A DNA stretch of 34,006 bases. Origin: an uncultured Alphaproteobacteria bacterium. Lineage in GTDB: Bacteria > Pseudomonadota > Alphaproteobacteria > Micavibrionales > Micavibrionaceae. The notes under the pieces are model-generated. The model was not told the origin of the DNA and made no database searches. It was given only the letters and a program-made list of their open reading frames with translations. Below are positions 1,382 through 19,907 of the stretch, in pieces. The position numbers were made by a program, and so were the translations under genes. Location: NCBI GenBank assembly GCA_937923625.1, contig CALDTV010000028.1, positions 1-34,006 of the forward strand, given 5' to 3'. How positions within the stretch are numbered: the first letter of the stretch is position 1; each line of letters opens with the position of its first letter.

Positions 1382-3282
1382 TATGCCTTCATTAATTTTA
1401 CAGAGAATTTAGCGCCGATACGCTCATCTTTATCATCACGAATATTTTCTGCCCAAATCTCACCATCATGGGCGTCAATAATTTGTTTGGAAATGGATAG
1501 CCCCAATCCAGAATGTCCACCATAATCTTCGTGTGGACGCTCTGTATAAAAACGCTCGAAAATATTATTTATTTTTGCCTCTGGTATGCCGATTCCCTCA
1601 TCGCTAACGGTAACAATTATATGATTTTTTATAATATTTGCTTCAATAATGACCGCGCCATTTTCTGGGCTAAAAGAAAGTGCGTTACTGATTAGGTTGC
1701 CAAAAACTTGCGCGAGACGGTCTTCATTGCCGCGCACATTCAAGTCAATAGCATCATCAAGGGAGAGAATAATTTTTTCGTCCCGTCGGTGATCATCTGA
1801 CTCCAAACGATCTAACGGCTTTTTATAGGCGTCACGAAGGCGATATAAAAGTGCTTTTAAATCAACAGCTTCCATTTGTTCCCGCGATAATTCCGCATCA
1901 AGGCGTGATGCGCTGGAAATATCGCTAATTAGGCGATCAAGCCGCTGGACGTCATGATGAATAATATCCATCAGCTTCTCACGGCTTTTATCATCTTTCA
2001 CCCGCGCGGCTGTTTCAACCGCACTGCGGAGGCTGGTGAGAGGGTTTTTGATTTCATGTGATACATCTGCGGCAAAGCGTTCAATCGTATCCATACGATC
2101 CCACAACGCGTGCGTCATGTCACGAAGCACGACAGATAGTTCGCCAATTTCATCACCGCGTTTGCTCATATCTGGGATTTCAACATGACGGCTTTTGCCA
2201 ACACGAACAGCCTCAGCGGCTAAGGCTAATTTTTTTAGGGGACGTCCAATAAGACCAGATAAATAAATTGACAGCATAACTGTAATACCAAGTGATCCGA
2301 GGAAAACACGAAAAACATCAACACGGATATCAGCAATTTTTTGCTCTAACTCATTGCCGTCTCGCACCAACAAAACGACGCCTAAAACTTGTTTGACTTT
2401 TTGGATGGGTGCGGCAGCAGTTAAAATGATCGAGCCATCTTTTTGTCGCCATGCGGTGGTGCTAATATCGCCCATAAGGGCCATGCGACTGTCAGGAAAT
2501 GTATCAATATTGTTAATCGTGCTAATTGGAAATTTTTCTAACTTGGTCTGCATAGGGATTAAATCCAAAAATCGTGCCGCGGATTGATCGAACAAAGCAT
2601 TTAAATTCATTGGGTGCGGTTCGGCTTTTGCTTGCTCTGCTTGTATAGAGCCATTTGCCCCTGCAAGCGCCGTAGCATCGGCAAGCAAGCCGCCATCAAC
2701 ACTAAATAATTTTGCGCGACTGGAGGCGTTTTCACCAAGGCGGCGCATCATCTGTCTTGCAAATTGTGGCTTGATTGCTTCTATTTGCATCGGGTCTTCA
2801 AACGGGATAGGAGATATTTGAAAAACGGGTCGTACCGCGCCCTCGGATAAAGCACCAGAGAAAAACCGTGCTTCAGAACGCATAGAGTTTAGCTCTGCTT
2901 CAATTAAACTATCGGTATACTGTCCTAAATATAAAACGCCCAAGCCAAGGATCATGATCGCAATAATATTGACCATCAAAATCCGCACCGTCAGCGAGCT
3001 CATTTTTTCTGACGAAGAGCTCCACCGTTGGTCAATGGGGCGGTGATCAGGTGCGTTATGTTCTTGGTTGTCGACTCTGCGTTTAAAAAGAGGGAACAGG
3101 ACTTTTTCCTTTAAACTAGAAAGCCCTGTTTCTTCTTTTTTATCCTGTCGATTAGGAGTTTTGGCGCTATTCTTTGTATCGATACCCGATGCCGTAGAGG
3201 GTTTCGATGTGGTTGAAGTCGCCGTCGACGTTGCGGAATTTTTTGCGGACGCGCTTGATGTGGGAGTCGATTGTTCTGTCAT
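1381..3282 (-). CDS. chvG: ChvG-type sensor histidine kinase
   Basis: Membrane sensor kinase partner of ChvI. Order of parts: a Ser/Thr/Ala-rich N-terminal tail, a membrane helix near residues 97-118, a periplasmic domain of about 200 residues, a second helix near 327-347, a HAMP linker, HisKA with the H-box [13 protein letters not shown] (phospho-acceptor His near 410), then HATPase boxes [18 protein letters not shown] and [10 protein letters not shown]. Known ChvG/ExoS proteins respond to envelope or acid stress. The start is uncertain. The ATG at 3282 makes the gene overlap chvI by 116 bases. The next usable start in frame is the ATG at 3006 (541 residues), which would begin almost at the first membrane helix and lose the cytoplasmic tail that relatives have. 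I see no GTG or TTG in frame between the two. Confidence 0.9.
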
Positions 3283-3865
3283 CTACATAGATATTCTCAC
3301 CATATGCCAAATCAATCAACTGATCTCTGTTTTTAACATGTCCTGGGCGCTGAGCGAGGGCTTTAACCAGTAAATATTCGGTGACGGTTAAATTAACGGG
3401 GTCGCCTTTCCACGTGCAAAGGTGGCGGGAATCATCCAATGTTAAATCGCCACGTTCGACTGTTTCTTCGGATTTTTCGTCATTTGCTGGCTCTGCCTGT
3501 AATTGTTGGCGTCTTAAAAGGGCGCGTATGCGCTCAATTAGCAAACGTTGGGAAAAAGGCTTGGTGATATAATCATCCGCCCCCATGCGCAGGCCAATGA
3601 CCTCATCGACTTCATCATCCTTGGAGGTGAGGAAGATAACAGGCAGGGATGATGTCTCCCGCAATTTTGATAAAACTTCCATGCCGTCCATACGGGGCAT
3701 TTTTATGTCCAAAACCACCAAATCAGGCGGGTTTGTTGTAATGCCCTTAAGGCCTTCTTCGCCATCATTATAGGTTTTGACATTAAAGCCCTCTGCCTCC
3801 AAGGACATGGAAACAGATGTAATGATATTGCGGTCATCATCTACTAAAGCGATATTTTGCGACAT
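3167..3865 (-). CDS. chvI: ChvI-type OmpR-family response regulator
   Basis: A 232-residue response regulator. The receiver domain begins [13 protein letters not shown] (acidic pair), has the phospho-acceptor Asp in [13 protein letters not shown], and the conserved Lys in DDYITKPFS. The second half is an OmpR-type winged helix ending [12 protein letters not shown] and GIGYRYKE, which binds DNA as in PhoB/OmpR relatives. I chose the ATG at 3865, not the upstream ATG at 3895, because AAGGAATC lies about 6 bases before it and ChvI proteins typically start MSQ-IALVDDD. The gene is followed by chvG and heads the operon. The 233 bases upstream, shared with the divergent lipoprotein gene, should hold its promoter. 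Confidence 0.94.
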
Positions 3866-4098
3866 ATAAGATTCCTTTTCGTTAGTTACGAACATATTTA
3901 ACGCATTCTCATTAAAAAGCGAAAAAAAGCGTGTTTAAAGGCCAAATTAAGATTTTATTGTGTTTATTTCAATAATTTGGGTCATATCAAGGCTTAAAAA
4001 TAGTTACATTTAAAATCAAGATTTTTATTTTGTTGTAATAAGGTTCAATACGATTAACCTGAATGTGACTAAAGAGTTTAACTTAAAGGATTATAACT

Positions 4099-4536
4099 AT
4101 GCCCTTGAAAATAATAACCTTACTATTTTTAACAATAACTTTATCTGCGTGTTCGCATAAAAAACTAGATACCAGTTTGCAAACCCTTCAAGGGCAAAAT
4201 ATACAAGTTGCCATTAATTATTTAGGCATACCAGACGATAAATTTACCCTGCAGGAAAAAGAAGTATATGTTTGGGGACGGGAACAAACAACGGTTCGTC
4301 AAAGCCCGATTGGCACCTACGGCAGTGTTGGATATGGCTCTCGCGGTGGCACATTTGGCGGCGTTGGTATTGTGTTTGGCACACCAAGTTCTAGCTACAG
4401 AGATAATTCTTTTTGCCAAATAAAAATAGTGACAGATCAAAATCAAACAATCGAAAAAGTTGAACGCGATAGCGCAGGCCGCGGATGTTCAAAGTACAAT
4501 GATGTTTTTGAGAATTTTGAACAAAATAATCTATAA
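4099..4536 (+). CDS. Small predicted lipoprotein
   Basis: This 145-residue protein starts with a Lys, a hydrophobic stretch and the lipobox LSAC (Cys near residue 19), so it should be a signal-peptidase II lipoprotein anchored in the envelope. The middle is rich in Gly, Ser and Tyr (around residues 75-100), and two further Cys occur in FCQIKIV and GRGCSKY, which could form a disulphide. The segment QVAINYLGIPDDKFTLQ followed by VYVWGREQ loosely resembles small outer-membrane lipoproteins with a SmpA-like start, but I cannot assign a family. AAAGGA lies about 8 bases before the ATG. It is transcribed divergently from chvI, so regulation by ChvI is plausible but not shown. Confidence 0.8.
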   Translation: MPLKIITLLFLTITLSACSHKKLDTSLQTLQGQNIQVAINYLGIPDDKFTLQEKEVYVWGREQTTVRQSPIGTYGSVGYGSRGGTFGGVGIVFGTPSSSYRDNSFCQIKIVTDQNQTIEKVERDSAGRGCSKYNDVFENFEQNNL

Positions 4537-5109
4537 AATTTTCTGATAACCTCAGTTATAAAAAGAATCGTTTTTATATATATATAAATGATAAGAAATT
4601 ATTAGCCTAGGCACACCCGTCGACAAAATGGTTAACAAATGGTGCTAATGAAAATGTAAGCCTGTGGGTGTGTACAGTCATCCCTTAACTATTCTCATAA
4701 GTTACTGTGTAACGCTTAATATCTTTATCTACATTTTTAGGGTAAATTTTTCATAAGCGTCTTATTGCAATACAATGAAATTAGAACAAATTTGATTAGA
4801 TTCATACTGTATATTCACCTGCTTAATTTAATAAGATCACTATATTGATGGTACTTATTTTATAGCAATTACGGAATAAATTATACCAAATAATATAATT
4901 AACTTAGAAAATTTTGAAACTATATCTGATTTTATGACGACAGTGAGGCTATGATTATACGAAGATTTTATATACTAAATAAAAACTGAACAAGGAAGAT
5001 GATATAAATTTTCGTGATGAACTTCAAAAAGAATTTAGAGAGTTTTTGATAGATCGAGGCAAATTATATATAAGTTCATTACATGACTAGAAAAATAATA
5101 TAAAAGTTT
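4537..5109. other. 573-base AT-rich gap without a recognisable gene
   Basis: No convincing coding region on either strand. It holds an alternating TA run near 4577-4586 and a spaced inverted repeat, CACACCC at 4612-4618 and GGGTGTG at 4666-4672, of unknown meaning. A short open stretch at about 4987-5090 reads as 34 residues ending FLIDRGKLYISSLHD before a stop. It has no good start codon and may be a decayed gene end. The gap separates the chv/rapZ region from the quorum-sensing cluster and may mark an old insertion edge. Confidence 0.6.
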
Positions 5110-6003
5110 TTATTTCACCACCTTCGTAGCACTGCCAGATTTAATGTAGTAAGACTTTTCAAAAATCTGGAATAGATCTTTTAATGTAATTATTTCTTTT
5201 CCAGTAATATATTCTCTAATATACTTAAGGTTATAGCATGGAATCACTGAGCATAAGTGATGTTCATAATGATGCCAAACACCGTGCGGTGCTAACATAG
5301 CTCCTTCTAGCCAATTTAACTTAAGTCGATGAGTGTCGTCAGTGCCTTGATGCTCTAGCCACGTCCTAAACCTAAAGAACATCATAAATGTTGTTATTAA
5401 GGATGTATACCACAGGATAGGAATGACCATTAACTCTAGTAGTACGAAAGTAACTGTGAATACAACATTCAAAATAGTAATAAATATATAATGATAATTT
5501 TTATTAGGTTTAGAGTTTAAAATAATCCCGAAATAGTCTGTAATTGAAAATCCAAAAATATCATAAAAACCATATTTAAGAATTTTAGGAATCGTAATAG
5601 GTAAATCCCATTGAGGTGCTTTTTGAGAACGGTGCATTAATTCTGGATCATGCTCCGTATTCATGTTCTTGTGGTGTGCAAAATGTAAATTTCTATATCC
5701 ACTAGTTGTTAATCCTAAGAGCCCAAAAGCAATAAAATCACTTAAAAAATCATTTATGGTTTTGTTTTTATTTATACTGTAGTGGGTGCCATCGTGACCT
5801 AAAATAGCAAGAGCATGTTGTCTATTTCCAATCACAAAAAGTGTTATAAAATAAAAAGAAAAATGATTTATCGTAACAGCTAAGTACATAAAAATAGTTA
5901 TTATAAACCAATCTAGTAAGGCATGCCTTGCCCAAGAAAAAGTATTTTTAGGGTTTAGCTCTTTCAAAACAGATTTCGGAATTTCTTTAATTGGATTGTT
6001 CAT
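5110..6003 (-). CDS. Integral-membrane fatty-acid desaturase family protein
   Basis: A 297-residue membrane di-iron enzyme. All three histidine boxes of the family are present in order: HDGTH (70-74), HFAHH (107-111) and HHYEHH (244-249). Hydrophobic helices lie around 30-60, 90-102 and 175-212. Such enzymes use O2 and electrons from a ferredoxin or cytochrome partner to desaturate or hydroxylate acyl chains at the membrane. I chose the ATG at 6003 (GAGG about 8 bases upstream) over a TTG eight codons earlier. The gene diverges from luxR. A palindromic operator (6057-6074) lies 53 bases upstream, the same distance as the matching operator has from luxI, so quorum control is likely. The substrate is unknown: membrane phospholipid, acyl-ACP or the AHL signal itself are all possible. 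Confidence 0.86.
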   Translation of the reverse strand: MNNPIKEIPKSVLKELNPKNTFSWARHALLDWFIITIFMYLAVTINHFSFYFITLFVIGNRQHALAILGHDGTHYSINKNKTINDFLSDFIAFGLLGLTTSGYRNLHFAHHKNMNTEHDPELMHRSQKAPQWDLPITIPKILKYGFYDIFGFSITDYFGIILNSKPNKNYHYIFITILNVVFTVTFVLLELMVIPILWYTSLITTFMMFFRFRTWLEHQGTDDTHRLKLNWLEGAMLAPHGVWHHYEHHLCSVIPCYNLKYIREYITGKEIITLKDLFQIFEKSYYIKSGSATKVVK

Positions 6004-6056
6004 ACTAGCCTCACATGTTGATCTCAAGAGCCTATAATTAAACCAATATAGATTAG

Positions 6057-6074
6057 CCCCGTAATTTAACGGGG
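6057..6074 (+). promoter_or_regulatory. Putative lux box A between desaturase and luxR
   Basis: CCCCGTAATTTAACGGGG is an 18-bp dyad with 6-bp arms. It differs at only two of 18 positions from the element upstream of luxI read on the minus strand. It lies 53 bases from the desaturase ATG and 125 bases from the luxR ATG. A TTATAG-like -10 falls about 20 bases beyond the palindrome on the desaturase side. LuxR-family operators are typically 18-20-bp dyads at the edge of the -35, so this is the expected form and place. Binding is inferred. Confidence 0.72.
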
Positions 6075-6199
6075 TATTATTGGAAACTTCTAAGGTATTG
6101 AAAAATAAAAATATTTATAAGACTTTGGTAAGCGTAAGTCTGAGTTTATGTGTTTTTTATTCTGAGTACAGTGTGATTACCATTGCAGGAAAAACCATA

Positions 6200-6949
6200 A
6201 TGAAAAATATCATCGCTTTTGAAGATTACTTGCAGCGCTCCAACCAAGCCCAATCTGAAGATGAATTATTCGCAATTTATAAAGAAGCTGTGGGCTCTCA
6301 TGGCTTAGATAGAGTTCTTTTATGCCTTGCTACTGAGCATCAAGATATAGGCAAAGTGGCTGGTCTAGGCGTTATGCATAATTATCCTAAACATTGGATG
6401 GATTATTATTTTGAAAAAGGACTAGATAAAATAGACCCTGTAATGATTTATGGTTTGAGAAAGATGGAGGCCTACACGTGGGAAGAAATACCTCGTAACA
6501 TGAGCTTATTAAAAAAACAAAAAGACTGTCTAAGTGAAGGGCAAGAATCTGGACTTTATAATGGAATATGCACCCCGTTACGAGGACCTGAGAATTCTCT
6601 CGCTGGATTGAGTCTGGCTTCTTCGGAAAAGAAAGATTCTTTTAGCGGTAATTTAGATATGATTACAGCATACAGTAATCATTTTTATATTGCTTATCGC
6701 CGCATTAACCAAAAGGGAAATAATCACACTAGAAATCAAACAACTCAGAATTATGCACTTACCCCTAAACAAAGAGAGATACTAACTTGGGCTGCGATCA
6801 GTAAGACTAACGAAGAAATAGGAATAATACTTGGAATATCACCAAGAACCGTGGAATGGCACATGAAAACTATATATGAGAAATTAAATGCATATGGTCG
6901 TGTATTAGCAGTAACAAAGGCAATTACTTATGGCTTAATTCACCCTTGA
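6200..6949 (+). CDS. LuxR-family acyl-homoserine-lactone-responsive regulator
   Basis: A 249-residue quorum-sensing regulator. The N-terminal half is an autoinducer-binding domain with all six residues conserved between TraR and LuxR proteins: W66, Y70, D79, P80, W94 and G122, each offset by nine from TraR numbering. The C-terminal part, from about 187, is a LuxR HTH (LTPKQREIL, then TNEEIGIILGISPRTVEWH). I chose the ATG at 6200 because AGGA lies about 10 bases upstream and the length fits the family. An in-frame TTG at 6080 would add 40 poorly conserved residues. The gene converges with luxI, so this is a cognate pair and not a solo. It probably binds the two palindromes at 6057 and 7804. 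Confidence 0.94.
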   Translation: MKNIIAFEDYLQRSNQAQSEDELFAIYKEAVGSHGLDRVLLCLATEHQDIGKVAGLGVMHNYPKHWMDYYFEKGLDKIDPVMIYGLRKMEAYTWEEIPRNMSLLKKQKDCLSEGQESGLYNGICTPLRGPENSLAGLSLASSEKKDSFSGNLDMITAYSNHFYIAYRRINQKGNNHTRNQTTQNYALTPKQREILTWAAISKTNEEIGIILGISPRTVEWHMKTIYEKLNAYGRVLAVTKAITYGLIHP

Positions 6950-7138
6950 TCACGGATATTCTTTTTTATACGCTTATATTCTTTTTTACTTATTCTTTGT
7001 GAAAACATAGAAATATAAAAACTTAAAAATAAGATACGATAAATAAATTTATTTTGGCGACTTGCTTCATTTTTTAAAAATTCTAAAGATTGAATAATAT
7101 AAAATACTTTGAAAAAATTATTTTTTTTCTTTTTAGCT

Positions 7139-7750
7139 TTACGCCGCAACTTTTTTCCTAGTAAAAATTTCTTGTTTATCAAGTTTTTTAAAATTTTCAT
7201 AGTTTTCCTGAGTTATATTCAAAATTGCTGCCTGTATCCTTTGTCCATCAATAAGCTTAGGCTTTCCTAAGTAGCGGTAAGCGCAGCCATTTTTTTTGAA
7301 AACTTGCCTTAAAATATATGAAGGCATTATTCCAATAATACTTGATATTTTATTTTTAAAACTAAAAACGAAATAAGCATTTACCAAATCACGTATTACT
7401 TTTTCTCTTACTTCAGGAGGCAGGTTTTTCTCAACACAAAAACGGGTCCCTTCCCAAATATCTTTTTCTAAAAATATATTATGATCATCTACCATCTCGG
7501 GAAAAAGGTCTTGTAACATTGATCGGTGAGATACAGGTGTTAGCCTGCAAACCCCTATGGCATGGTCTTTTGCTGATTTATAAACAATGTATTTTGCGGA
7601 GGGGGTATCATATTGATCATATTCAAGTTCTTTATAATTAAAAACATCATAATTTTGCCTTTCAACAAAACTTTTATAGCGCAGCTGGTGTTGTGACAGC
7701 AGTAATGAGCCATGTAGATGCATATTTTGGTAGTCAATAAAGAAAATCAT
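7139..7750 (-). CDS. LuxI-family acyl-homoserine-lactone synthase
   Basis: A 203-residue autoinducer synthase, making AHL from S-adenosylmethionine and an acyl-ACP or acyl-CoA. The family's invariant residues fall almost at LuxI numbering: R24, F28, D45, D48, R69, F83, E100 and R103, seen in LRYKSF, YDQYD, GVCRL, LFPEM and WEGTRFCV. The usually invariant Trp near 34 is Tyr here. The ATG at 7750 has AGGGG about 6 bases upstream and gives the normal MIFFIDYQN-type start. An upstream ATG at 7783 is unlikely. The palindrome at 7804-7821 lies 53 bases before the start and should give LuxR-dependent autoinduction. The acyl chain cannot be predicted from the sequence. Confidence 0.94.
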   Translation of the reverse strand: MIFFIDYQNMHLHGSLLLSQHQLRYKSFVERQNYDVFNYKELEYDQYDTPSAKYIVYKSAKDHAIGVCRLTPVSHRSMLQDLFPEMVDDHNIFLEKDIWEGTRFCVEKNLPPEVREKVIRDLVNAYFVFSFKNKISSIIGIMPSYILRQVFKKNGCAYRYLGKPKLIDGQRIQAAILNITQENYENFKKLDKQEIFTRKKVAA

Positions 7751-7803
7751 ATGAGCCCCTATAAATTTACAAGTATGCTGCATTTATCTTTTGAATAAAA
7801 AAA

Positions 7804-7821
7804 CCCCGTTGAACTACGGGG
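7804..7821 (-). promoter_or_regulatory. Putative lux box B between luxI and phyH
   Basis: On the minus strand this reads CCCCGTAGTTCAACGGGG, matching box A at 16 of 18 positions with both arms identical. It is 53 bases from the luxI ATG and 49 bases from the first ATG on the phyH side (7871). A T-run follows on the minus strand, so it could be mistaken for a terminator. Its position between divergent genes and its twin at 6057 argue for an operator. Confidence 0.74.
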
Positions 7822-7941
7822 GCTACTCTATCGTATGCGATTGTTATGTTTTTTTAGAAATTAAAAAAGCATGGAGAATTTTATGGGTACAAAACCAAAA
7901 GAACAGGTGCACTACTTACAAAATCTAGCATTTGCCAAGAA

Positions 7942-8619
7942 ATGGCAACTAACCCACTTGTGCTAGGAGTTATGGATCATTTTCTTTTACAAAATTGCTC
8001 ACAGTACCAGATCAATCTAACTCAGGGTATTTCGATTGGTGCTAATGAGGATAAACAAGTTATTCATAGAGATGATAACATGTTTCCTTATGTTCAAGCC
8101 CAAGGTGAAAAAATGATTAACTGTATGTGGGCTATCAGTGATTTTACGACTGATAATGGTGCAACAAGACTAATCCCAGAAAGTCATTTGTGGTCATGTG
8201 AAAATATTATAGACCACGAACAGATCTTAAAAGCTGAATCTATCGAAGCCTCTTATGCAGAAATGACGGCGGGTTCCGTATTAATATATTTTGGCTCTAC
8301 ATATCATAGCGGTGGCCAAAATATAACAGATCAAAATAGAATAGGAGCTGTTATAAGTTATAACTTAGGGTGGCTTAGACAAGCTGAAAATAGCTATCTT
8401 GCTTATTCAAAAAAAGATCTACGGTTAATGAACGAACGTTTACAAAGATTACTTGGTTATTTTGTTCACGAACCAAATTTAGGATCAGTGGACGGTCAAG
8501 ATCCTATAAATTTAATTAAAAATAATGAGTATCGTTCAAGTGAGTTTCTGGAGTTTATTCCAGAAGAAGCTCAAAACATACTCAGGGAATATAATAATAT
8601 CTTAAAAAATGCAGCTTAA
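7942..8619 (+). CDS. PhyH-type Fe(II)/2-oxoglutarate dioxygenase, 5' end abnormal
   Basis: From the only in-frame ATG (7942) this gives 225 residues with the double-stranded beta-helix signatures: the HxD iron pair in IHRDDNMF, NGATRLIPESHLW, and the distal iron His in YHSGGQN followed by an Arg about 11 residues later. Relatives hydroxylate acyl-CoA-like or lipid substrates. The frame is open upstream to 7858 and encodes GEFYGYKTKRTGALLTKSS, which looks like the conserved region preceding NPLVLG in PhyH proteins. So the ATG start cuts into conserved sequence, and the usual first 50 or so residues are absent. An ATG at 7883 with a good GGAG ribosome site is in a different frame. The gene may be 5'-truncated, frameshifted or unusually initiated. 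It lies downstream of lux box B. Confidence 0.75.
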   Translation: MATNPLVLGVMDHFLLQNCSQYQINLTQGISIGANEDKQVIHRDDNMFPYVQAQGEKMINCMWAISDFTTDNGATRLIPESHLWSCENIIDHEQILKAESIEASYAEMTAGSVLIYFGSTYHSGGQNITDQNRIGAVISYNLGWLRQAENSYLAYSKKDLRLMNERLQRLLGYFVHEPNLGSVDGQDPINLIKNNEYRSSEFLEFIPEEAQNILREYNNILKNAA

Positions 8620-8689
8620 TTTAAAAAATTAGTATTATTTATTTTTAAATAATAACAAGGCTATCTATTTAGTATTTTAAGAGGATTTT

Positions 8690-8959
8690 ATGACACCTAA
8701 TGTTTCCCAAACAGACGTAATGCTTTCTATTCTTCACTTAGATAGAGGAATCAATTTCACTAGTCATCTAGAAGTTATTTTAAAAAACCTCCAAGAGAAC
8801 CCAGAAGAATTTAATACAAAAACTGCTTTAAAACTAATCGATGTAACAAAGTCTATTAGAGGTTGTTTTCATGACTGTTATTCCAATCATCTATACAGCG
8901 ATAATGATTTTGATAATTTGTATGAATTGGTAAACGATTTAATGGTAGGTCGAGATTGA
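8690..8959 (+). CDS. Hypothetical 89-residue protein, last gene of the quorum-sensing cluster
   Basis: A small acidic protein with no recognised family. It appears mainly alpha-helical, with two Cys in GCFHDCYSN. AAGAGGA lies about 5 bases before the ATG, which supports translation. It follows phyH by 70 bases on the same strand and may be co-transcribed with it from the promoter near lux box B. It has no signal peptide or membrane segment, so it is probably cytoplasmic. It is the last gene before the island attachment site at 9106. No function is proposed. Confidence 0.6.
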   Translation: MTPNVSQTDVMLSILHLDRGINFTSHLEVILKNLQENPEEFNTKTALKLIDVTKSIRGCFHDCYSNHLYSDNDFDNLYELVNDLMVGRD

Positions 8960-9105
8960 GATTTGAATGAGAAGGTGCTGTCAGACAAATAGTAAACATT
9001 ATGCCGTGAGAGGCTCAGATAACTAGGTAATTGCATTTCGATGGCTCACTTTATGGCACACCTAGAAAAGCTAATAACTTAAGTCGTTGGACTAAATAGG
9101 GAATT

Positions 9106-9132
9106 TAAGAAAATTGGTGGCGGTACAGAGAT
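9106..9132. repeat. Island attachment site, left end (attL)
   Basis: 27 bases identical to 15772-15798. The repeat consists of the last 18 bases of the tRNA-Met gene (minus-strand sense, including CCA) plus 9 bases beyond it. It begins taagaaaattgg and ends gtacagagat; the flanking bases differ on both sides. This orphan tRNA tail, 6,666 bases from the real tRNA gene, marks the far end of an integrated element. Confidence 0.93.
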
Positions 9133-9134
9133 AC

Positions 9135-9157
9135 GCTACCGATTTTGAAATCGTAGC
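9135..9157. repeat. Imperfect inverted repeat next to attL
   Basis: GCTACCGATTT and AAATCGTAGC pair over about 10 bases with one bulge and a two-base loop. It lies just inside the island end and could be a recombination-directionality site or a weak terminator for the leftward cassette. Its role is not determined. Confidence 0.4.
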
Positions 9158-9202
9158 ATTTCTGCGTGTTGTAAGAGCTGTGTTTTTCAAATTTCGTCAT
9201 TT

Positions 9203-9223
9203 TGTATCACAGTTTGTATCACA
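9203..9223. repeat. Candidate integrase arm sites, left end
   Basis: TGTATCACA occurs twice in tandem (9203-9211 and 9215-9223), 12 bases apart. The same word, plus a one-base variant, occurs with the same 12-base spacing at the other island end (15696-15716). Paired short repeats inside both ends are typical arm-type binding sites of tyrosine integrases. Confidence 0.55.
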
Positions 9224-9228
9224 AAACT

Positions 9229-9819
9229 TCAATCATTAGCTTTAAAATTTGCTGATACAAATTTTGATAACGGCAATTCTGCTGATTTTGGTCTTAAAAG
9301 ATGATTATGAAGCATTCTTCCTAACTTATCATAACCTATAGCACTTAGAGAGCAGACTACATTATCTTCAAAGCTTATCAAATCAGTGTGTGTAGAACAG
9401 ATTTTATTGAAAAAAACAATTCCTCCATATTGTAAATCTGAGCAATCATGAGGTGGTAAATACATTGCTCTAAAAATTTTATTGTTTGATAAATTCATAA
9501 TAAAAGCTCGCAATTTATTTACTTCAAAAACGTTTTTATATGCGTCAAAAAAATTTTCAAAGGGAATTATAGGACATATTAGAATGTCTTCATTTTGAAT
9601 TTTATCGTTCTCAGGAGATAAATCACATTCATGAGTAAGAATAAGAACTGTTCCTTCAACAGTCATAAATTTACGATTGTCTTTGTTACACAACGGATAT
9701 CTTATGTCTTCGCAAATCATGCCAGCACCAAAAGGCAAACCATTCACAGGACCATAAGTAGCTTTATGACTTGTAAAATTATCTAATATTTCTTTTGTGG
9801 CAGTTTGAACAGAATACAT
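9229..9819 (-). CDS. Hypothetical protein, third gene of the TIGR04255-like cassette
   Basis: A 196-residue predicted cytoplasmic protein with no family I can name firmly. Visible features are a Gly-rich start (VNGLPFGAGMICEDIRYP), a strongly hydrophobic strand with conserved-looking polar residues, TVLILTHECDLSPEND, and a second Cys-Pro motif in ILICPIIPFE. The His-Glu-Cys-Asp cluster could be a metal or catalytic site, but this is inference. It starts 8 bases after the stop of the 86-residue gene and is clearly in the same operon. It is the last gene at the left island end, a usual place for cargo. Confidence 0.72.
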   Translation of the reverse strand: MYSVQTATKEILDNFTSHKATYGPVNGLPFGAGMICEDIRYPLCNKDNRKFMTVEGTVLILTHECDLSPENDKIQNEDILICPIIPFENFFDAYKNVFEVNKLRAFIMNLSNNKIFRAMYLPPHDCSDLQYGGIVFFNKICSTHTDLISFEDNVVCSLSAIGYDKLGRMLHNHLLRPKSAELPLSKFVSANFKAND

Positions 9820-9827
9820 GTTTAATT

Positions 9828-10088
9828 CTAGTCATTTATAATCTTTACAGATGAGAGTAGTGCTGAATGTATAACCTGCTGCTCTTTTTTTGACATATAA
9901 TAAGATGGAGTTTCACTTTGCGACCAATAAGTTGAATCATAAAGAAGATTTATATCTGAAATATAGTCTATTCCAGATAACTTAATATTAGGTTCGTATT
10001 CAGAAATTTCTAATGGTCTGTGCTCTGCCATCAAGTGAGATGATGATTGAGAAATGTCAAAATCATATATAATTGGTGGTATTATCAT
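9828..10088 (-). CDS. Hypothetical 86-residue protein, middle gene of the cassette
   Basis: A small predicted soluble protein that I do not recognise. It is rich in Ser, Tyr and Ile, with no signal peptide or membrane helix. The central part (ISEYEPNIKLSGIDYISD) could form beta strands, and the C-terminus is probably a helix. The ATG lies two bases after the stop of the upstream TIGR04255-like gene, which indicates coupled translation and probably a functional link such as complex formation. The tight packing on both sides is the main support that it is a gene. Confidence 0.7.
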   Translation of the reverse strand: MIIPPIIYDFDISQSSSHLMAEHRPLEISEYEPNIKLSGIDYISDINLLYDSTYWSQSETPSYYMSKKEQQVIHSALLSSVKIIND

Positions 10089-10090
10089 GC

Positions 10091-10840
10091 TTATTCTTCC
10101 ACAATTTTTTCAAGTGTTTCAGGTCTAAATAAAGAGAAAAATTCTTCTTTTTCTTTTTGATGTGCTGTTTCAATCCAAGAGATAACTTTTTCTTTATCTT
10201 GTAATGACTCGACATCTTTCGAATATACATCCAAGTCAACAAGTAAGTTCATATCAATATTTACACCTTTTAAAAACGATGGTGTGCTCAAGCGTACTAA
10301 AGCTTCAAAGTTATCCCCTAGAAGCTTTTTATAATTAAGATTAATATTTTTAGTTAGTTCCTGATTGCCAACATTAACTTTGATTTCTAGGTCATTTAAG
10401 CTTGATATATAGTGACTCTTTTCATTCAAAGCATTGATATACCTTATACCTAAGCGAGTAATTTCAAGCTTCGGAAATGTTTTAAATAAAATATTGATAA
10501 CATTTCTAATTTCTAAATAATATTGTTCCCAGCCAGCGTATTCCCCTACATTATTATATGCAAGAACGTGAGTACCAATTCTTACTGACCTGTTTTTTTC
10601 TATATTATTAAGTTGCATCAATGGCTGATGCTTGAAATCTGAGTCTTGTAGTCTAATTTGTGTAGGAATATCAGAAACAGGCAGTCTTGTATGTTCGTAA
10701 TCTTGCCACGTATCAACAGCAGCTAGTTTTCCAACTACAATTTCTGAAATTTCATGCGTTTCAAACCTGATTTCGCATATGGCTTCTGCTATGGAGTCTG
10801 TAATAAGCTTATTTGGTAGATTCATTGATAAGTCATTCAT
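10091..10840 (-). CDS. TIGR04255-like family protein
   Basis: A 249-residue protein resembling TIGR04255, a sporadically distributed family of unknown function. Supporting stretches are the start IAEAICEIRFE, the strand RIGTHVLAYNN followed by YAGWEQYYLEI near residues 90-110, and ITRLGIRYINAL near 145, which are the family's typical conserved positions. It has no membrane segments. It heads a three-gene operon (stop to next start two bases). Patchy distribution and repeated location in mobile islands make a defence or stress role possible, but nothing in the sequence proves an enzyme activity. The 126 bases upstream separate it from the recombinase gene and should include its promoter. Confidence 0.72.
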   Translation of the reverse strand: MNDLSMNLPNKLITDSIAEAICEIRFETHEISEIVVGKLAAVDTWQDYEHTRLPVSDIPTQIRLQDSDFKHQPLMQLNNIEKNRSVRIGTHVLAYNNVGEYAGWEQYYLEIRNVINILFKTFPKLEITRLGIRYINALNEKSHYISSLNDLEIKVNVGNQELTKNINLNYKKLLGDNFEALVRLSTPSFLKGVNIDMNLLVDLDVYSKDVESLQDKEKVISWIETAHQKEKEEFFSLFRPETLEKIVEE

Positions 10841-10929
10841 GTAAAGCCTTTTTCGACCTTAAAATGTAATTTAAAATTATTAATAGCAAGTTAAAAACGA
10901 ACACTGCTCAATAATTCTAACAGATAAAT

Positions 10930-10962
10930 AACACTATGTGAATCTGCCATTTACATAGTGTT
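10930..10962 (-). terminator. Inverted repeat, probable terminator of the short recombinase gene
   Basis: AACACTATGT and ACATAGTGTT form a perfect 10-bp stem with a 13-base loop, starting five bases beyond the recombinase stop on the minus strand and followed by ATTTAT. The U-tract is weak, so it could instead be an operator for the cassette downstream. Confidence 0.5.
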
Positions 10963-10966
10963 AGCT

Positions 10967-11548
10967 TTATATCATTTGTACTACCTTTTTTTGTGCATCA
11001 ACATCTGCTTCGATATAACGCTGTGTCATGTTCAAAGATGAATGCCTTGCAAGCATTTGAACGTCACGAATTGAACCACCAACAGTTGATATTTTCTTAG
11101 CCGCATTTGTAATGAATGTTCTTCTTCCGCTATGAGAAGAACAACCGATAAAGCCCATCTTGTTGTACCAAGTTTGAAACATATTCACGATTACTTGAGC
11201 TGAAGTACTATTTCCTCTTTCTGTCTTGATGATATTGCCCGATAGAGTGCAATTAGAAGCTTGATATTGTTGCAGTGCTGATTGCAATTCTTTATTGAGC
11301 CAAATCACACCTCCAGAAGAGCCTTTTGATGCCGTATTTTGTAATTTGATGCAGTCTGATATCTCCCCATCTGCATCAATGACCATCTCCCACGTTATAT
11401 TAGCGATTTCCTTCGCTCTAAGCCCTGCACGTGTTGATAACAGAAATATCAGCTTGTTTCGTTCAGCGTGTCTTGTACCGTCTAAAAACGACAATAGAGC
11501 CGTGTGCTGATGCTTTGTGAGTGTTTTTGCTTGTTTTGCCAATCCCAT
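10967..11548 (-). CDS. Short tyrosine recombinase
   Basis: A 193-residue protein that is essentially only the catalytic domain of a tyrosine recombinase. All active-site elements are visible: Arg in TRAGLRAKEI, Lys in TASKGSSGG, HxxR in SHSGRRTF, His in LARHSS and the nucleophile Tyr in TQRYIEAD. I chose the ATG at 11548 because AGAGGA lies about 7 bases upstream. A longer start at 11617 is weaker. It lacks most of the N-terminal core-binding domain of phage integrases. It is the second recombinase of the island and lies mid-island, not next to an attachment site, so it may act on internal sites, resolve dimers or invert DNA. Confidence 0.88.
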   Translation of the reverse strand: MGLAKQAKTLTKHQHTALLSFLDGTRHAERNKLIFLLSTRAGLRAKEIANITWEMVIDADGEISDCIKLQNTASKGSSGGVIWLNKELQSALQQYQASNCTLSGNIIKTERGNSTSAQVIVNMFQTWYNKMGFIGCSSHSGRRTFITNAAKKISTVGGSIRDVQMLARHSSLNMTQRYIEADVDAQKKVVQMI

Positions 11549-11872
11549 ATCTATTCCTCTCATTATATTATTTACGTTAGAGAGAATTTTAACATTGGCC
11601 ATTTCCACTGCAACCAATTCCGTTAATGTTTTATATAATAATTTCAGTATCTTAACTGCGACTGATTAGCTTCTTTATGTTTCATAATCAGTCGAATTTA
11701 CTTGACTTTTTTGTCATAATAATATATACTTATCTTGCTTAAATAGAAAAGCAATTTCCCAAAATTGAAATACGTAGCCAATGCCTCAAAAGACTAAATA
11801 TCTTTGAAGTAAACTGTATATACGTTCCATTTCAGCTGAAATTTTACGATTTAAAGAAGTGCATCTCTATTA
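11549..11872. other. Divergent intergenic region in the island
   Basis: Between the recombinase (leftward) and the HUH-like gene (rightward). It contains a clear sigma-70-like promoter for the rightward gene, listed separately. I see no gene. If the rightward gene is a rolling-circle initiator, its nick site might lie here, but I could not identify one. Confidence 0.5.
11702..11730 (+). promoter_or_regulatory. Sigma-70-type promoter for the HUH-like gene
   Basis: TTGACT at 11702-11707 and TATACT at 11725-11730 are separated by 17 bases, close to ideal. It points at the gene starting at 11873, giving a leader of about 135 bases. Confidence 0.6.
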
Positions 11873-12601
11873 GTGATGGAGACATTTTTTCGTAATTCAT
11901 ATGACCACCACGATTTTGATGCCGAGCTACAGCTTGTCACCAATGTATATTTTATTATCAAAAAGAAAGTAGAAAAAATGAATCAAAACAGTTCCTATAT
12001 GCCTAGATTCGATAAAGAATTTATAAAGCAATATTCTGATAAATATTACTTTTTGAAATCATTACCCGAATTAATTCAAAGCCAGCTAGATGTATATACT
12101 TCGTACTTCATGACAGTAACATTCAAGAATACCCACTATAAAACCAAATATGACCGATACAGACAATATTTTCGCTACTTCTATAGAAATCTCAATCAAT
12201 ATACGCTCTCACGCTCCAGAACTAATCATACAAAATCCATTATAATTTTGATACCTGAAGAATCATATCATTGCGTATCAAGTCAAAAATTTGCGTGCAC
12301 ACATTTTCACAGCATTCTATTTGTTCACAATAATAATCTACAGCGTTTTAACAGACGATGTGTTTTAGCTAAAGACGATGCTGACCGTATATATTTTAAC
12401 GAAAAGCTATTATCACCTTATCCAGAGACCAGCGATATTGCTGTTAAAAGAAGCGACCTTGTGTGCTGTTCTCACCACGTCAAAAAACTAAATTATGCAC
12501 ATGACATTTACAAAACAGCATTTTATATAAATAAAAATTTTGTTAATAGTTCATTTGAATATGACCAGATGATGCTGTTTAGCAAATTATACAAAGCATA
12601 A
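11873..12601 (+). CDS. Putative HUH-type replication initiator or endonuclease
   Basis: A 242-residue protein of no firmly recognised family that shows the three motifs of HUH rolling-circle initiators in the right order: a beta strand FMTVTFKN (like motif 1), FACTHFHSILFV with His-x-His (motif 2, metal binding), and TAFYINKNF with Tyr-x-x-Lys (motif 3, nicking Tyr). It is basic and rich in Tyr and Asn. The ATG at 11873 directly precedes MMETFF; the ribosome site is weak. A ribbon-helix-helix gene follows at once. This would allow the island to replicate after excision. The alternative is an unrelated protein with a chance HxH, so confidence is moderate. Confidence 0.5.
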   Translation: MMETFFRNSYDHHDFDAELQLVTNVYFIIKKKVEKMNQNSSYMPRFDKEFIKQYSDKYYFLKSLPELIQSQLDVYTSYFMTVTFKNTHYKTKYDRYRQYFRYFYRNLNQYTLSRSRTNHTKSIIILIPEESYHCVSSQKFACTHFHSILFVHNNNLQRFNRRCVLAKDDADRIYFNEKLLSPYPETSDIAVKRSDLVCCSHHVKKLNYAHDIYKTAFYINKNFVNSSFEYDQMMLFSKLYKA

Positions 12602-12609
12602 ATAATGAT

Positions 12610-12765
12610 ATGAGAGAGAAGAAAAAGCCTATATCAATGAGATTAGAGCCTAACCTGTTAAAAAGTATTGATGAAGTATCGTTACTAGTCGATATACCTA
12701 ATAGAACCGCTTTTGTAGAACAAGCCTGTTCTGAATATTTTCAAAAAGTAATACTGAAAATATAA
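12610..12765 (+). CDS. Small ribbon-helix-helix DNA-binding protein
   Basis: A 51-residue protein. PISMRLEPNLLKSIDEVS followed by IPNRTAFVEQACSEYF matches the Arc/CopG fold: a short strand, a helix, then a second helix starting at the Asn-Arg-Thr turn. AGAG-type purines precede the ATG at 12610. It starts 8 bases after the HUH-like gene, so the two are probably co-transcribed. It may repress the initiator promoter, as CopG does on rolling-circle plasmids, or be an orphan antitoxin. It ends two bases before the convergent gene. Confidence 0.72.
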   Translation: MREKKKPISMRLEPNLLKSIDEVSLLVDIPNRTAFVEQACSEYFQKVILKI

Positions 12766-12767
12766 GT

Positions 12768-13853
12768 TTATCTTTCTAAAACGATATCATCTAGAGTAAC
12801 GCTAGATGAGTGATTAATTGTTTCTACTTCTTGCGTTTTATTGTTGTTTTTTGCCTTAGATTTTGCTTTGTACTTTTTGAAAAAATATTTCGGCGTAGCT
12901 ATCACTATATATATAATCGATATTAATGCGGCCAATAAGAATACCATTCCAATATACATAAGAGACTCATCTTCCTTAGCTCCTATGTAAGCCGTGAATA
13001 TAATAAAAGTGACCAAAATTGCCCAAGAAATTTTAAGACGTTTTCTAATTTTAGTATCCCCTTCAAACGTTACTTTTTTTGCAAGAATCTCCCTTTGAAT
13101 TTCTTCTTCTTCGTCTTTCATCTGCGCTTCATGTTTTCGCTTAATATACTCATCCCATGAGCCAAATTTGATTATTGCTTTAGCACGAGTTTCTAATTCT
13201 TCAAGAAGCTTCTGTTTTGACCGTAATGCAAGAGTGATTTTTTCACATTCAGTTTGTGCCTTGTCACGTTCATCAAATTTATTACCATTTTCAGCTATAT
13301 CAGTTTGTTTATTAAGATTTTTTTCTAGCTTTTCAACTTCATCTTTGACTTCGAAATATGTTCTTGGAGCATCATTTAAAAAACGCATATTTCTTTCAAT
13401 TTCTTCATTATTTTTTTTCTGCTGTTTCTCGCTTTGAACTACATCAACTTTATGATGCCGTGAAGTGATATCTTTTAAGATTTGAACAGCCATATCGCTT
13501 GCTACAGCAGTGATACTTTTTCCATTATCAAACAACAATGTAACTTTTATATTTGAATTTTTTGTATCAATAGAAGAAGCGACACCAACCAACAAACCAG
13601 TAAGAGCATTTTTATTATTGCCGTAAGCACTGCCTGCCATTGCTCCAACAGAGCCTTTTAAAGCTGTTTTGCCTAAAGAAGTTTTTGATTCTCTTGAAGA
13701 TGTGATTTTCTTTAGCTGAGCAGACAAATCAATTTCAAATTTGTTCCATAGTTCTTTAGAGATTAAGTAGTAACGATTGTTCTTTTCACATATGTCTACT
13801 GTTTCTGCCCTATAATCACCTCTGATTTTATTTAATTCCACTAAAGCTTGCAT
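12768..13853 (-). CDS. Coiled-coil protein with two C-terminal membrane helices
   Basis: A 361-residue protein of no recognised family. Residues 60-95 form a small-residue, Gly/Ala-rich segment (SVGAMAGSAYG, LLVGVASS) like membrane-inserting glycine-zipper stretches. Residues about 135-265 are highly charged and predicted coiled coil, rich in Glu, Lys and Gln. Two membrane helices follow near 273-292 and 298-320. The tail is basic and ends TLDDIVLER. There is no signal peptide. It diverges from the XRE regulator gene across about 75 bases and may be controlled by it. The layout recalls membrane effectors of defence islands or superinfection exclusion, but this is only an analogy. Confidence 0.68.
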   Translation of the reverse strand: MQALVELNKIRGDYRAETVDICEKNNRYYLISKELWNKFEIDLSAQLKKITSSRESKTSLGKTALKGSVGAMAGSAYGNNKNALTGLLVGVASSIDTKNSNIKVTLLFDNGKSITAVASDMAVQILKDITSRHHKVDVVQSEKQQKKNNEEIERNMRFLNDAPRTYFEVKDEVEKLEKNLNKQTDIAENGNKFDERDKAQTECEKITLALRSKQKLLEELETRAKAIIKFGSWDEYIKRKHEAQMKDEEEEIQREILAKKVTFEGDTKIRKRLKISWAILVTFIIFTAYIGAKEDESLMYIGMVFLLAALISIIYIVIATPKYFFKKYKAKSKAKNNNKTQEVETINHSSSVTLDDIVLER

Positions 13854-13929
13854 CTCTAAATCCTATATAATTTACAGCTGTGATTATATTCACGTATTGT
13901 CATTTTTGCAACAGCGTATCCTGTTCTCA

Positions 13930-14151
13930 ATGAATAGAAAGCAAGCAGAGCTCGAAGTCGATAAAATAATTGCGAAATTAATGAAAATTCGTAAAGAAAA
14001 GTCGATTTCTCATGAAAAATTAGCAGAGTTATCTGGCTTAAATCGTTCGACAATAAGCCTCACAGAAGCAAGAAAATCACAGCCAACACTTCTTACGTGT
14101 ATTTTGATAGCAGATGCGTTAGATGTGAATTTAGAAGAAATAATTAAATAA
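13930..14151 (+). CDS. XRE-family helix-turn-helix regulator
   Basis: A 73-residue single-domain Cro/CI-type DNA-binding protein. The HTH is clear in KEKSISHEKLAELSGLNRSTIS, followed by the usual KSQPTLLTCILIADALDVNLEEI. I chose the ATG at 13930; an in-frame TTG at 13897 would add 11 residues. Three bases after its stop comes the end of the convergent integrase gene. It diverges from the coiled-coil membrane protein gene, so it likely represses that promoter and its own, acting as the island's switch. Confidence 0.85.
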   Translation: MNRKQAELEVDKIIAKLMKIRKEKSISHEKLAELSGLNRSTISLTEARKSQPTLLTCILIADALDVNLEEIIK

Positions 14152-14154
14152 AGC

Positions 14155-15705
14155 TTATTCGTATCGCTTTATTTTTGAGATATCCAATCCAAAATTTAGT
14201 TTGTTCATCTCATTGTGTTTCACTTCTAAAGAATATTCTTCTTGATAACCAGCATGTGTATCTTTGCTTTTACCATGCCCAAATATTTCTCTCATAACAT
14301 GCTCGTTTAGATGCCTTTGCTTTTCATTATTAATAGCTGTATGTCGAAAGCTGTGAAAATTTTTATGTTCTTCAATCAAGTTCTGTTCTTTTAGCTTTTT
14401 TAAAAAACTATTTACAAACCAATCAGACATTTTTCTACACGATATGTCACCAGATGCCGTTTTAAGCTTCATAAATAACATTTCTTGCTTATAAGACTTT
14501 ATCTTTTCTACATAATTCAAAAAACCCAGAGAAATTAAGTCATCATGTATTGGAATCACCCTTCTAGAGTTGTTTGTTTTTAAACGTTTTTCGTAAGTTT
14601 CATCAGTGATATCAATATACCAAATGCCGTTTTTACATTTAATCTCTGAAAGTTTTATCTGTGCAATTTCGTTTGCTCTTGCACCAGTATAAAGCGCAAG
14701 TATAGCCCCCCAATGACGCTGTTGTTCTTTGTTAGCGTACTTGCCTACTGCAAACATGTCATTGTAGAAAATAGCTTCTAGTTCTTGACGTTTGTAATTT
14801 CTAATCACTTTTTTCTGTTTATTCTTAACAGATTTGAAAAAATCGAGCGCAAATACGGCTTTGCTATCAATTAGTCCTCTCTTTTCAGCCCAAATTAAAA
14901 GTGACTTGAACTGCACGACATACTTCATTTGAGAGCGATGACTTAAAATTGTTAGTTTTTTAGAGCCTGCAATTTTAATGCATTCATGAATGTCTGTTAT
15001 ACCCCTGTATTCTTTTTTCTTCTTAACATTTGCAGGAAAGACACGAATATTTTTAGAGAATTTTTCTGCTATAAGTTCATGCGTCAAATCTTTAGCCAGC
15101 GGATTTCCACATAAATCGTTAATGTTTCTCAAAACAGCTTTAAAATCATCTTCTGATTTTTTAGACCATGAGTCACCTAGTTGCTTATCTGTAATGAATC
15201 TATCAATTATATCGCTTAAGCGTAAATCATTTGAAATTGTATTTTGAGCTTGAGCCACAGCTAACGTAGATGTAATTGCAGACTGTTTTTTAGATGCATG
15301 ATGTTTCTGATAGTACAGAAAAGCTTCTTTATCGAAGATGCTCGAATAATTCTTGTTAGAACCGAATTCCATCACGAAAAAATCGTCTAAAATGATATTA
15401 TCTAGCGGGTCTATTGCTTCATACATGTCAGAGAGTATTTTGCCTCGATGATACATGTGATTGAGATTATCTTGTAAGTCATCAATCTCGTTTGACGTTA
15501 ATGAACTTTTTGTCATTATAATTTTCCTTATTAATGTTGATTTGAAAAGCGCAGTTTGACGACAAGCTGTTTTTAAGCTTAATCGTATGAAAACTTTATC
15601 GCTGAAATGATTTTTTAAATGTTTCGGAATTCTACAATGAAAGTAATAAATTCCGTTGCGCAAAAGCAGATATGTTGCATCTACTTTTCTCATTTTGTAA
15701 CACAT
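14155..15705 (-). CDS. Site-specific tyrosine integrase of the tRNA-Met island
   Basis: A 516-residue integrase. The N-terminus (DATYLLLRNGIYYFHCRIPKHL) resembles the DUF6538-type arm-binding start common in alphaproteobacterial integrases. A core-binding domain is followed by the catalytic domain with Arg in YTGARANEIAQIKL, HSFRHT, and GHGKSKDTHAGYQ supplying His and the nucleophile Tyr. It begins 67 bases from the 27-bp attachment repeat in the tRNA-Met 3' end and reads away from it, the classic position for the element's own integrase. The ATG at 15705 is used; an ATG at 15693 is also possible. Its 5' end overlaps the candidate arm site TGTAACACA, suggesting autorepression. Confidence 0.92.
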   Translation of the reverse strand: MCYKMRKVDATYLLLRNGIYYFHCRIPKHLKNHFSDKVFIRLSLKTACRQTALFKSTLIRKIIMTKSSLTSNEIDDLQDNLNHMYHRGKILSDMYEAIDPLDNIILDDFFVMEFGSNKNYSSIFDKEAFLYYQKHHASKKQSAITSTLAVAQAQNTISNDLRLSDIIDRFITDKQLGDSWSKKSEDDFKAVLRNINDLCGNPLAKDLTHELIAEKFSKNIRVFPANVKKKKEYRGITDIHECIKIAGSKKLTILSHRSQMKYVVQFKSLLIWAEKRGLIDSKAVFALDFFKSVKNKQKKVIRNYKRQELEAIFYNDMFAVGKYANKEQQRHWGAILALYTGARANEIAQIKLSEIKCKNGIWYIDITDETYEKRLKTNNSRRVIPIHDDLISLGFLNYVEKIKSYKQEMLFMKLKTASGDISCRKMSDWFVNSFLKKLKEQNLIEEHKNFHSFRHTAINNEKQRHLNEHVMREIFGHGKSKDTHAGYQEEYSLEVKHNEMNKLNFGLDISKIKRYE

Positions 15706-15716
15706 AATGTATCACA
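15696..15716. repeat. Candidate integrase arm sites, right end
   Basis: TGTAACACA (15696-15704) and TGTATCACA (15708-15716), 12 bases apart as at the left end. They overlap the integrase start region. Confidence 0.55.
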
Positions 15717-15771
15717 GTTATGTGATTCTGTCAAGTAAAATCGATATATGTTGTTGATTTTAAACGAAAAA

Positions 15772-15798
15772 TAAGAAAATTGGTGGCGGTACAGAGAT
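15772..15798. repeat. Island attachment site, right end (attR), inside the tRNA-Met 3' end
   Basis: 27 bases identical to 9106-9132. The crossover segment covers the CCA, the 3' acceptor strand and part of the T arm of the tRNA gene, so integration leaves a complete tRNA. Confidence 0.93.
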
Positions 15799-15856
15799 TT
15801 GAACTCCGGACACAAGGATTATGATTCCTCTGCTCTAACCACTGAGCTATACCGCC
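15781..15856 (-). tRNA. tRNA-Met (CAT), elongator type
   Basis: On the minus strand the gene runs from GGCGGTA to TACCGCCACCA. The acceptor arm, D arm (GCTC/GAGC), anticodon arm GAGGA-ATCATAA-TCCTT and T arm all pair. The anticodon is CAT. Elongator Met is more likely than lysidine-modified tRNA-Ile because of the GAGGA/TCCTT anticodon stem typical of tRNA-Met, but sequence alone does not fully exclude Ile. CCA is encoded. It is the integration target of the neighbouring island. Confidence 0.93.
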
Positions 15857-15939
15857 ACGCTTGATTGGGTGTTATCGCGTAAAATCGTGGTTTTTGTCAA
15901 GCACCATGAATGAAAAAGCTTTTATGCTCTAATATCTCA

Positions 15940-16728: not shown

Positions 16729-16788
16729 TTTAATTTTCCTTATTAAATAATAAGGATGTTTTATAACGATAATTATTAATTATGTAAT

Positions 16789-19890: not shown

Positions 19891-19907
19891 TTTCATTTTT
19901 AGATTTA

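Follow-up and report, generated by a model that had tools for sequence, protein, structure and literature searches.

A conserved luxR-luxI-desaturase gene cluster with paired lux-box-like palindromes and a truncated phyH gene in a Micavibrionaceae genome

The stretch of DNA analyzed here (hereafter, the window) spans one entire 34-kb contig (34,006 nucleotides) of an uncultured member of the Micavibrionaceae (Alphaproteobacteria), whose 2.05-Mb genome is assembled in 28 contigs and is 99.8% complete. The window carries a cluster of four genes related to quorum sensing and, putatively, to acyl chain oxidation. A gene for a membrane fatty-acid-desaturase-type enzyme (PF00487; 5110..6003, minus strand; 297 amino acids (aa), His boxes HDGTH, HFAHH, and HYEHH) adjoins the divergent luxR gene, which encodes a receptor for N-acyl homoserine lactones (AHLs; 6200..6949, plus strand; 249 aa counted from the conserved start). 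The inverted luxI gene, for the AHL synthase, follows (7139..7750, minus strand; 203 aa counted from the conserved start), and beyond it lies a 5'-truncated gene for a PhyH-type Fe(II)/2-oxoglutarate oxygenase (7873..8619, plus strand; open reading frame (ORF) from 7942). All four frames exceed the respective Pfam cut-offs, and a single Autoind_synth, a single Autoind_bind, and a single PF00487 protein were found in the genome, each within the window. The original prediction, made for this DNA from the letters alone, had described these four genes as a quorum-sensing cluster with convergent luxR and luxI; the genes are real and their convergence, with luxR on the plus and luxI on the minus strand, is borne out, but the PhyH gene proved incomplete. 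That account did not include two exact 18-bp palindromes, a small ORF at 6940-7200, and an integrative element that starts at 9106.

Start codons of luxR, luxI, and the desaturase gene were chosen by alignment with relatives. This places the desaturase start at 6003 and revises two earlier assignments: luxR starts at 6200 rather than at the TTG at 6080, and luxI at 7750 rather than at 7783, where a longer ORF begins. The named proteins were scanned against Pfam and NCBIfam, and neighboring genes were otherwise grouped by BLAST alone. Judged by its domains (PF03472, 4e-23; GerE, 5e-15) and its pocket residues, the luxR product is a LuxR-type AHL receptor: W66, Y70, D79, P80, W94, and G122, numbered from the Met at 6200, are all present, as had been claimed, and we take them, following the original statement, to be the TraR positions shifted by nine. 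By the same kinds of evidence, the luxI product is a LuxI-type AHL synthase. It matches PF00765 (1e-20, 74.5 bits versus a cut-off of 24) and has R24, E43, D45, D48, R69, E100, and R103, which presumably make up the catalytic motif, in place as originally reported, with Tyr instead of the presumably usual Trp at position 34. As a separate observation, the last two residues are VA or AA in 11 of 13 aligned LuxI proteins, reminiscent of a proteolysis tag.

The third protein is a clear member of PF00487 (8e-24, 85.1 bits versus a cut-off of 29.7) with all three His boxes. Its AF2 model is confident, with a predicted local distance difference test (pLDDT) score of 93. The top Foldseek match of the model, and the sole one at E <=0.001, is 8xks_K, a chain of a motor complex (E 2e-4, template-modeling (TM) score 0.65), and the third-ranked match is the alkane hydroxylase FtAlkB (E 0.02, TM 0.53). 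Because these are the structural matches, desaturation and hydroxylation both appear possible, and the enzyme could equally be a hydroxylase. Sequence searches at E 0.01 found no relative of solved structure. The only named model that the protein matches is NF041365 of NCBIfam, the L-arginine hydroxylase GntB, at 64 bits against a model cut-off of 380, and membership in that family was rejected.

The palindromes occupy the two gaps between divergent genes. One copy, CCCCGTAATTTAACGGGG (6057..6074), lies between the desaturase gene and luxR, and the other, CCCCGTTGAACTACGGGG (7804..7821), between luxI and the phyH remnant; both are lux-box-like and fit the pattern CCCCGT-N6-ACGGGG exactly. Allowing up to two mismatches, the window holds three matches (the two exact ones included) versus 0.19 expected, a figure that is after the fact because the two sites themselves supplied the pattern. 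Nowhere else in the genome is the pattern matched exactly. A wider LuxR regulon is not supported, given that the genome-wide count of looser sites falls below that of a reversed control and that the two one-mismatch sites sit inside ORFs. From box center to start codon, 23 distances in nine of the ten linked loci introduced below (G078 left out; starts by alignment) span 50-78 nt, a promoter-like spacing. In the window, this distance is 62.5 for the desaturase gene, from the start at 6003, and 134.5 for luxR.

Whether such a neighborhood recurs in related genomes had been put forward as a check, and it does, in ten loci. We searched 142 genomes of the order, the window's included and some of them incomplete. 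The luxI family is common in this set (53 of the 142 genomes match at E 0.001, 48 above the cut-off). Matches to the desaturase at 1e-8 come from eight genomes, seven of them strong (E <1e-80, window counted), and all seven strong matches adjoin luxI on the same contig, with phyH present too. When named genomes were scanned using the desaturase alignment as query, with flanks of up to 8 kb per side taken in, 23 loci were returned. Every one of the best nine (42-50% identity) carries luxR and luxI in the flank, seven of them with phyH as well and two, from Asticcacaulis strains, without a visible phyH. No luxI appears in the flanks of the remaining 14 (<=38% identity; flank shorter than 8 kb in five). 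Open luxR, luxI, and desaturase frames are present in the strain records of Asticcacaulis machinosus LKC15W and A. tiandongensis 3.1105. Six of the nine linked loci belong to order genomes already counted, so that there are ten distinct linked loci, the window among them. Eight of these have phyH, counting the truncated copy of the window.

The ten linked desaturases are monophyletic: against 23 unlinked homologs, they fall on one side of a branch with support 95/94, at 40-50% identity of the relatives to the window enzyme. As a control, 385 genomes sampled from the class gave 19 other desaturase matches at 1e-30; the highest-scoring of them reaches 139.7 bits, compared with 492 for the window desaturase. 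Seven of these 19 genomes have luxI, never on the desaturase contig. No luxI-independent copy of the linked clade was found in the order, named-genome, and class searches. One of the unlinked loci (L086), from Pseudomonas fontis, showed no match to the LuxR model at E 1e-4 in the examined desaturase flank; the genome encodes two Autoind_bind proteins. The label 'Bryobacterales' of linked locus L074, which is unverified, may reflect a binning error. A plasmid-borne member of the clade was also sought: eight plasmid records match the desaturase, and since the best shows only 24.5% identity over 79% of the query, no clade member resides on these plasmids. Going by this comparison of genomes, the luxR-luxI-desaturase module with frequent phyH is real and conserved, and the window contains a rearranged form of it with a broken phyH.

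The conserved linkage bears directly on the trivial explanation that the genes are neighbors merely through an AT-rich mobile island. The setting of the cluster lends itself to this idea. An exact 27-bp direct repeat is present at 9106-9132 and 15772-15798, and its right copy overlaps one end of a tRNA-Met gene (15781-15856, minus strand). Between the copies, the ORF at 14155-15705 has the look of an integrase and that at 10967-11617 matches Phage_integrase, so that 9106-15798 probably represents an integrated element directly adjacent to the quorum-sensing genes. Both the cluster and this element are low in GC content (30-36% per kb at 4001-16000 versus 33-47% elsewhere in the window); the cluster itself (4537-9105) has 31.8% GC, compared with 45.5% at 3167-3895 and 41.3% at 15940-34006. 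In addition, the module is patchy in the order. The cluster, however, lies outside the 27-bp repeats. A tandem island enclosing it was also rejected, as 3900-16000 contains no third copy of the putative attachment site. The linkage is retained across ten loci whose desaturases are 40-50% identical to that of the window, and the GC content of the genes is near that of the surroundings in L074 and L077, and 5-7 points lower in L036. With conserved linkage, a single clade, and the control genomes all speaking against it, as do the paired control sites described next, we regard a chance neighborhood as highly improbable. Elsewhere in the window, a transfer-messenger RNA gene was found at 19455-19888, marked by ARAGORN with an asterisk, which we take to denote the permuted two-piece form.

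The half-sites of the relatives differ from those of the window, for example, CCTACGT, ATCACG, and CCCCACGCG, and within a locus the desaturase-side copy resembles the luxI-side copy. The within-locus score summed over the ten loci was reached by none of 20000 random re-pairings, a permutation that is not free of relatedness because the loci group by similar half-sites. The own pair exceeds the maximum of 200 base shuffles in seven of the ten loci. Within its row it takes first place in seven of the ten loci (ties counted), whereas it comes second in both G078 and G079 and drops to fifth in G066. A. machinosus gave no candidate pair when the pairing was first tested under stricter conditions. 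Such co-variation is what a single LuxR working at both promoters would be expected to produce, and suggests that LuxR-AHL co-induces luxI and the desaturase gene, binding itself being what we infer from the sites. The coupling of the desaturase to quorum sensing, part of the original proposal, thus gains support from paired lux-box-like sites in most of the ten loci, and we regard the module as probably under LuxR control.

In seven of the ten loci, the desaturase gene is divergent from a phyH-luxR-luxI array. Families encoded in at least five of the loci, on the coding side, are the desaturase, LuxR, LuxI, PhyH, a small ORF, and a helix-turn-helix (HTH) protein, which reads as XRE-like; signal-transduction genes (four loci) and large repetitive proteins (three loci) are rarer recurrent neighbors. 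The HTH gene does not appear module-specific, because it is also near many luxI genes without a desaturase. No further metabolic gene family, and no lipid-pathway gene, is common to most of the clusters, which favors a substrate that comes from LuxI or from primary metabolism. The small protein (~80 aa) overlaps or follows luxI in L031 (6744-6980), L033 (7876-8127), L036 (7028-7291), and L074 (5162-5404), is also found beside luxI in L054 and L065, and follows the desaturase in L032 (5222-5461). The small basic ORF of the window (6940..7200, minus strand; 86 aa), which overlaps the 3' end of luxI, weakly matches a model of this luxI-adjacent protein (5e-4), a possible small regulator. Beyond the phyH remnant, an 89-aa ORF with no assigned function (8690..8959, plus strand) has matches at E 0.001 in two of the 142 order genomes, both near the desaturase-luxRI module; its sole relative is in a genome of the same genus (G015), on the contig of the module (L031, 495-827).

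The LuxI proteins of eight of the ten linked loci form one clade (support 100/98 in the 10-row set). Two further LuxI proteins, from L054 and L065, fall inside this clade with no desaturase seen nearby; these loci are uninformative on linkage because their contigs end just past or inside luxR. L034 and L035 combine a LuxI from another clade with the LuxR and desaturase of the linked group, a possible synthase swap, as read from the trees.

The PhyH frame of the window calls for caution. It matches PF05721 (3e-20), as the description of a flanking PhyH gene implied, but the match begins only at profile position 68 (1-67 missing), and homology to intact relatives begins at GEFYGY (7873). With a stop at 7855-7857 and the first in-frame ATG, GTG, or TTG only at 7942, there is no in-frame start in between, and hence approximately 57 N-terminal codons are lost, with 225 codons still open. 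The ATG at 7883, which has a plausible ribosome-binding site, does not lie in this frame; it falls on bases that encode EFYG in the phyH frame. The missing N-terminus was sought elsewhere in the window with the first 69 residues of one relative, and at E <1 only the known 7873-7914 segment was recovered. The gene thus lacks a complete PhyH domain despite the conserved HxD...H and Arg (H42, D44, H122, and R133 in ORF numbering), which we take to be ligand residues. The AF2 model of the truncated protein, built from eight alignment rows without an intact control, is poor (pLDDT 37) and carries little weight. On reading the frame, we consider the window gene probably a pseudogene and its enzyme inactive, so that the PhyH step has probably been lost in this organism.

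In the relatives, PhyH is full length and keeps the ligand residues. The window PhyH groups with those of G028 and G086 (support 91/91 in a first tree and 95/97 in a second), and a topology joining it with the PhyH of the other desaturase-linked clusters is rejected by the approximately unbiased (AU) test (p 0.008); it belongs to a different PhyH lineage. A PhyH profile of 13 rows, the window row among them, was compared with solved oxygenases; intact PhyH comes closest to DhiD (6e-41), SwnH1 (1e-39), and PrhA (2e-38), and phytanoyl-CoA dioxygenase 2a1x is distant (6e-7), so phytanoyl-CoA is not to be assumed as the substrate. Of 13 strong homologs in the order, 10 are near luxI and one (in G125) is beside luxR; for the remaining two, the distance to a contig end is 223 and 119 bases. 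Gene neighborhoods therefore tie PhyH to quorum sensing beyond the desaturase-linked loci.

Taken together, the conserved linkage, the single clade, the paired sites, and the presence of a single receptor, synthase, and desaturase in the genome lead us to favor a self-contained, autoregulated LuxR-LuxI module whose output is a dedicated desaturase or hydroxylase acting on the signal or its precursor, a tentative reading to which we give slightly less than an even chance. Under this scheme, LuxI would make an AHL; LuxR-AHL would bind both palindromes, the one upstream of luxI, creating positive feedback, and the one that separates the desaturase gene from its divergent neighbor, so that the desaturase is made. 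The enzyme would then oxidize an acyl chain, with the AHL or its acyl precursor as the likeliest substrate, and the chemistry or threshold of the signal would shift once the quorum is reached. Promoter activation and the substrate, like LuxR binding, are what we infer. A more specific proposal, in which desaturase and PhyH oxidize the LuxI product or precursor to give a private unsaturated or hydroxylated AHL for a co-evolved LuxR, the cassette having spread across lineages, strikes us as possible and rather doubtful. The original suggestion of a role for both enzymes fits the relatives better than the window, because the window PhyH is probably inactive.

Several observations weigh against the favored scheme. 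The LuxI of the near-identical marine genomes G078 and G079 is in another clade, with their desaturase (95/94) and LuxR (89/79, modest) staying with the linked group. The site pairs of G066, G079, and G078 score 16.5, 17, and 17, against shuffles with a 95% point of 17 and a maximum of 18, and, since the loci fall into groups with similar half-sites, own pairs are equaled in score by some pairs taken across loci. In the genome, sites at up to two mismatches number 35 versus 74 for the reversed control, and the PhyH of the window is damaged. As for chemistry, Novosphingobium LuxI proteins in a foreign host made C8, C8-OH, and C10-OH AHLs (PMC5012321), and the work on QscR of Pseudomonas aeruginosa describes tests on labeled AHL of QscR-controlled products, a possible desaturase-domain protein among them, in which no modification was found (PMC6113619).

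The same genes could form an output module, in which LuxR-AHL turns on the desaturase, along with PhyH in relatives, to remodel membrane lipids or yield a lipid product at high density, the AHL being ordinary. The usual substrates of PF00487 enzymes are acyl chains carried by lipids or CoA, the window enzyme is the only desaturase found in its genome, and the type of LuxI varies with the desaturase and LuxR remaining together; the palindromes and their pairing also fit this explanation. However, 135 of the 142 order genomes lack a strong match, which would be odd for a general membrane enzyme, and both the failure to find a luxI-independent clade copy and the absence of any lipid-pathway gene common to most clusters point the other way. 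We consider an output of this kind somewhat unlikely.

In relation to known systems, a desaturase clade that, in the collections searched, occurs only with luxRI and is apparently co-controlled with luxI is a genetic candidate for signal change or for a built-in brake on quorum sensing. AHL diversity is normally ascribed to the substrate choice of LuxI. The clusters also make the role of phyH beside luxI testable, with Asticcacaulis for the desaturase and with relatives that have an intact phyH, and they place AHL-type genes in relatives of Micavibrio, a predator. In the small set of bacteria that have the module, its joining by gene order, and probably by shared control sites, suggests chemical tuning of signal or membranes when cells are crowded. 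Among titles and the starts of abstracts in the open-licence literature, we found no AHL signaling by Micavibrio; nor did the matches listed there, most subscription literature being outside this collection, include a desaturase family dedicated to luxRI.

A close analogy in regulation is QscR, which, by chromatin immunoprecipitation sequencing (ChIP-seq), binds only one linked operon, PA1895-1897, encoding proteins with a possible hydroxylase domain and a possible desaturase domain, and delaying quorum sensing (PMC6113619). In both cases, the gene of a LuxR-type receptor is divergent from one for a possible desaturase-domain product, a single linked target that QscR controls directly and that the LuxR of the window would control; the likeness is one of gene arrangement and control. 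By this analogy, the LuxR-controlled oxidative enzymes might lower the signal level and raise the threshold, through an altered substrate pool, an antagonist, or signal loss. The position of the window luxR, divergent from the desaturase gene with a site in between, and the location of both exact genomic sites in the cluster agree with such a brake, as does the divergence of qscR from the single linked operon that delays quorum sensing. Yet QscR is an orphan that lacks a synthase to match, whereas the receptor here belongs to a unit together with synthase and desaturase, the enzymes of the relatives share control sites with luxI itself, and the authors state that they identified no homologs of the three PA1895-1897 proteins in any organism (PMC6113619). 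We therefore judge a brake improbable. A desaturase operon downstream of PcsR2 of P. chlororaphis has also been described (PMC7683790).

Oxidized and unsaturated AHLs have been reported for the marine strain MOLA 401, with desaturases and a P450 acting on the chains after LuxI as their proposed source; the accessible text names no linked desaturase gene (PMC5479921). MOLA 401 is a precedent for the idea of AHL-modifying desaturases.

The nearest relatives in gene content are the novR-novI-phyH loci of Sphingomonadaceae, which show the same adjacency of luxR, luxI, and phyH, some with mobile elements nearby. An adjacent phyH and luxI have been described in sphingomonads (PMC3704786, PMC5012321, PMC4288048), as the original prediction had noted; the word desaturase is absent from the main text of all three. 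In those loci, phyH follows luxI, whereas in seven of the loci studied here it is divergent from the desaturase gene and precedes luxR, and in the window it is truncated. Novosphingobium and Variovorax plasmids also carry the luxR-luxI-phyH arrangement, and a Sphingobium plasmid has luxI-phyH; unlike the window, these three loci show no desaturase among their annotated neighbors. The adjacency of phyH and luxI is already published, and the lux-box-like palindromes upstream of the desaturase gene and luxI are new here.

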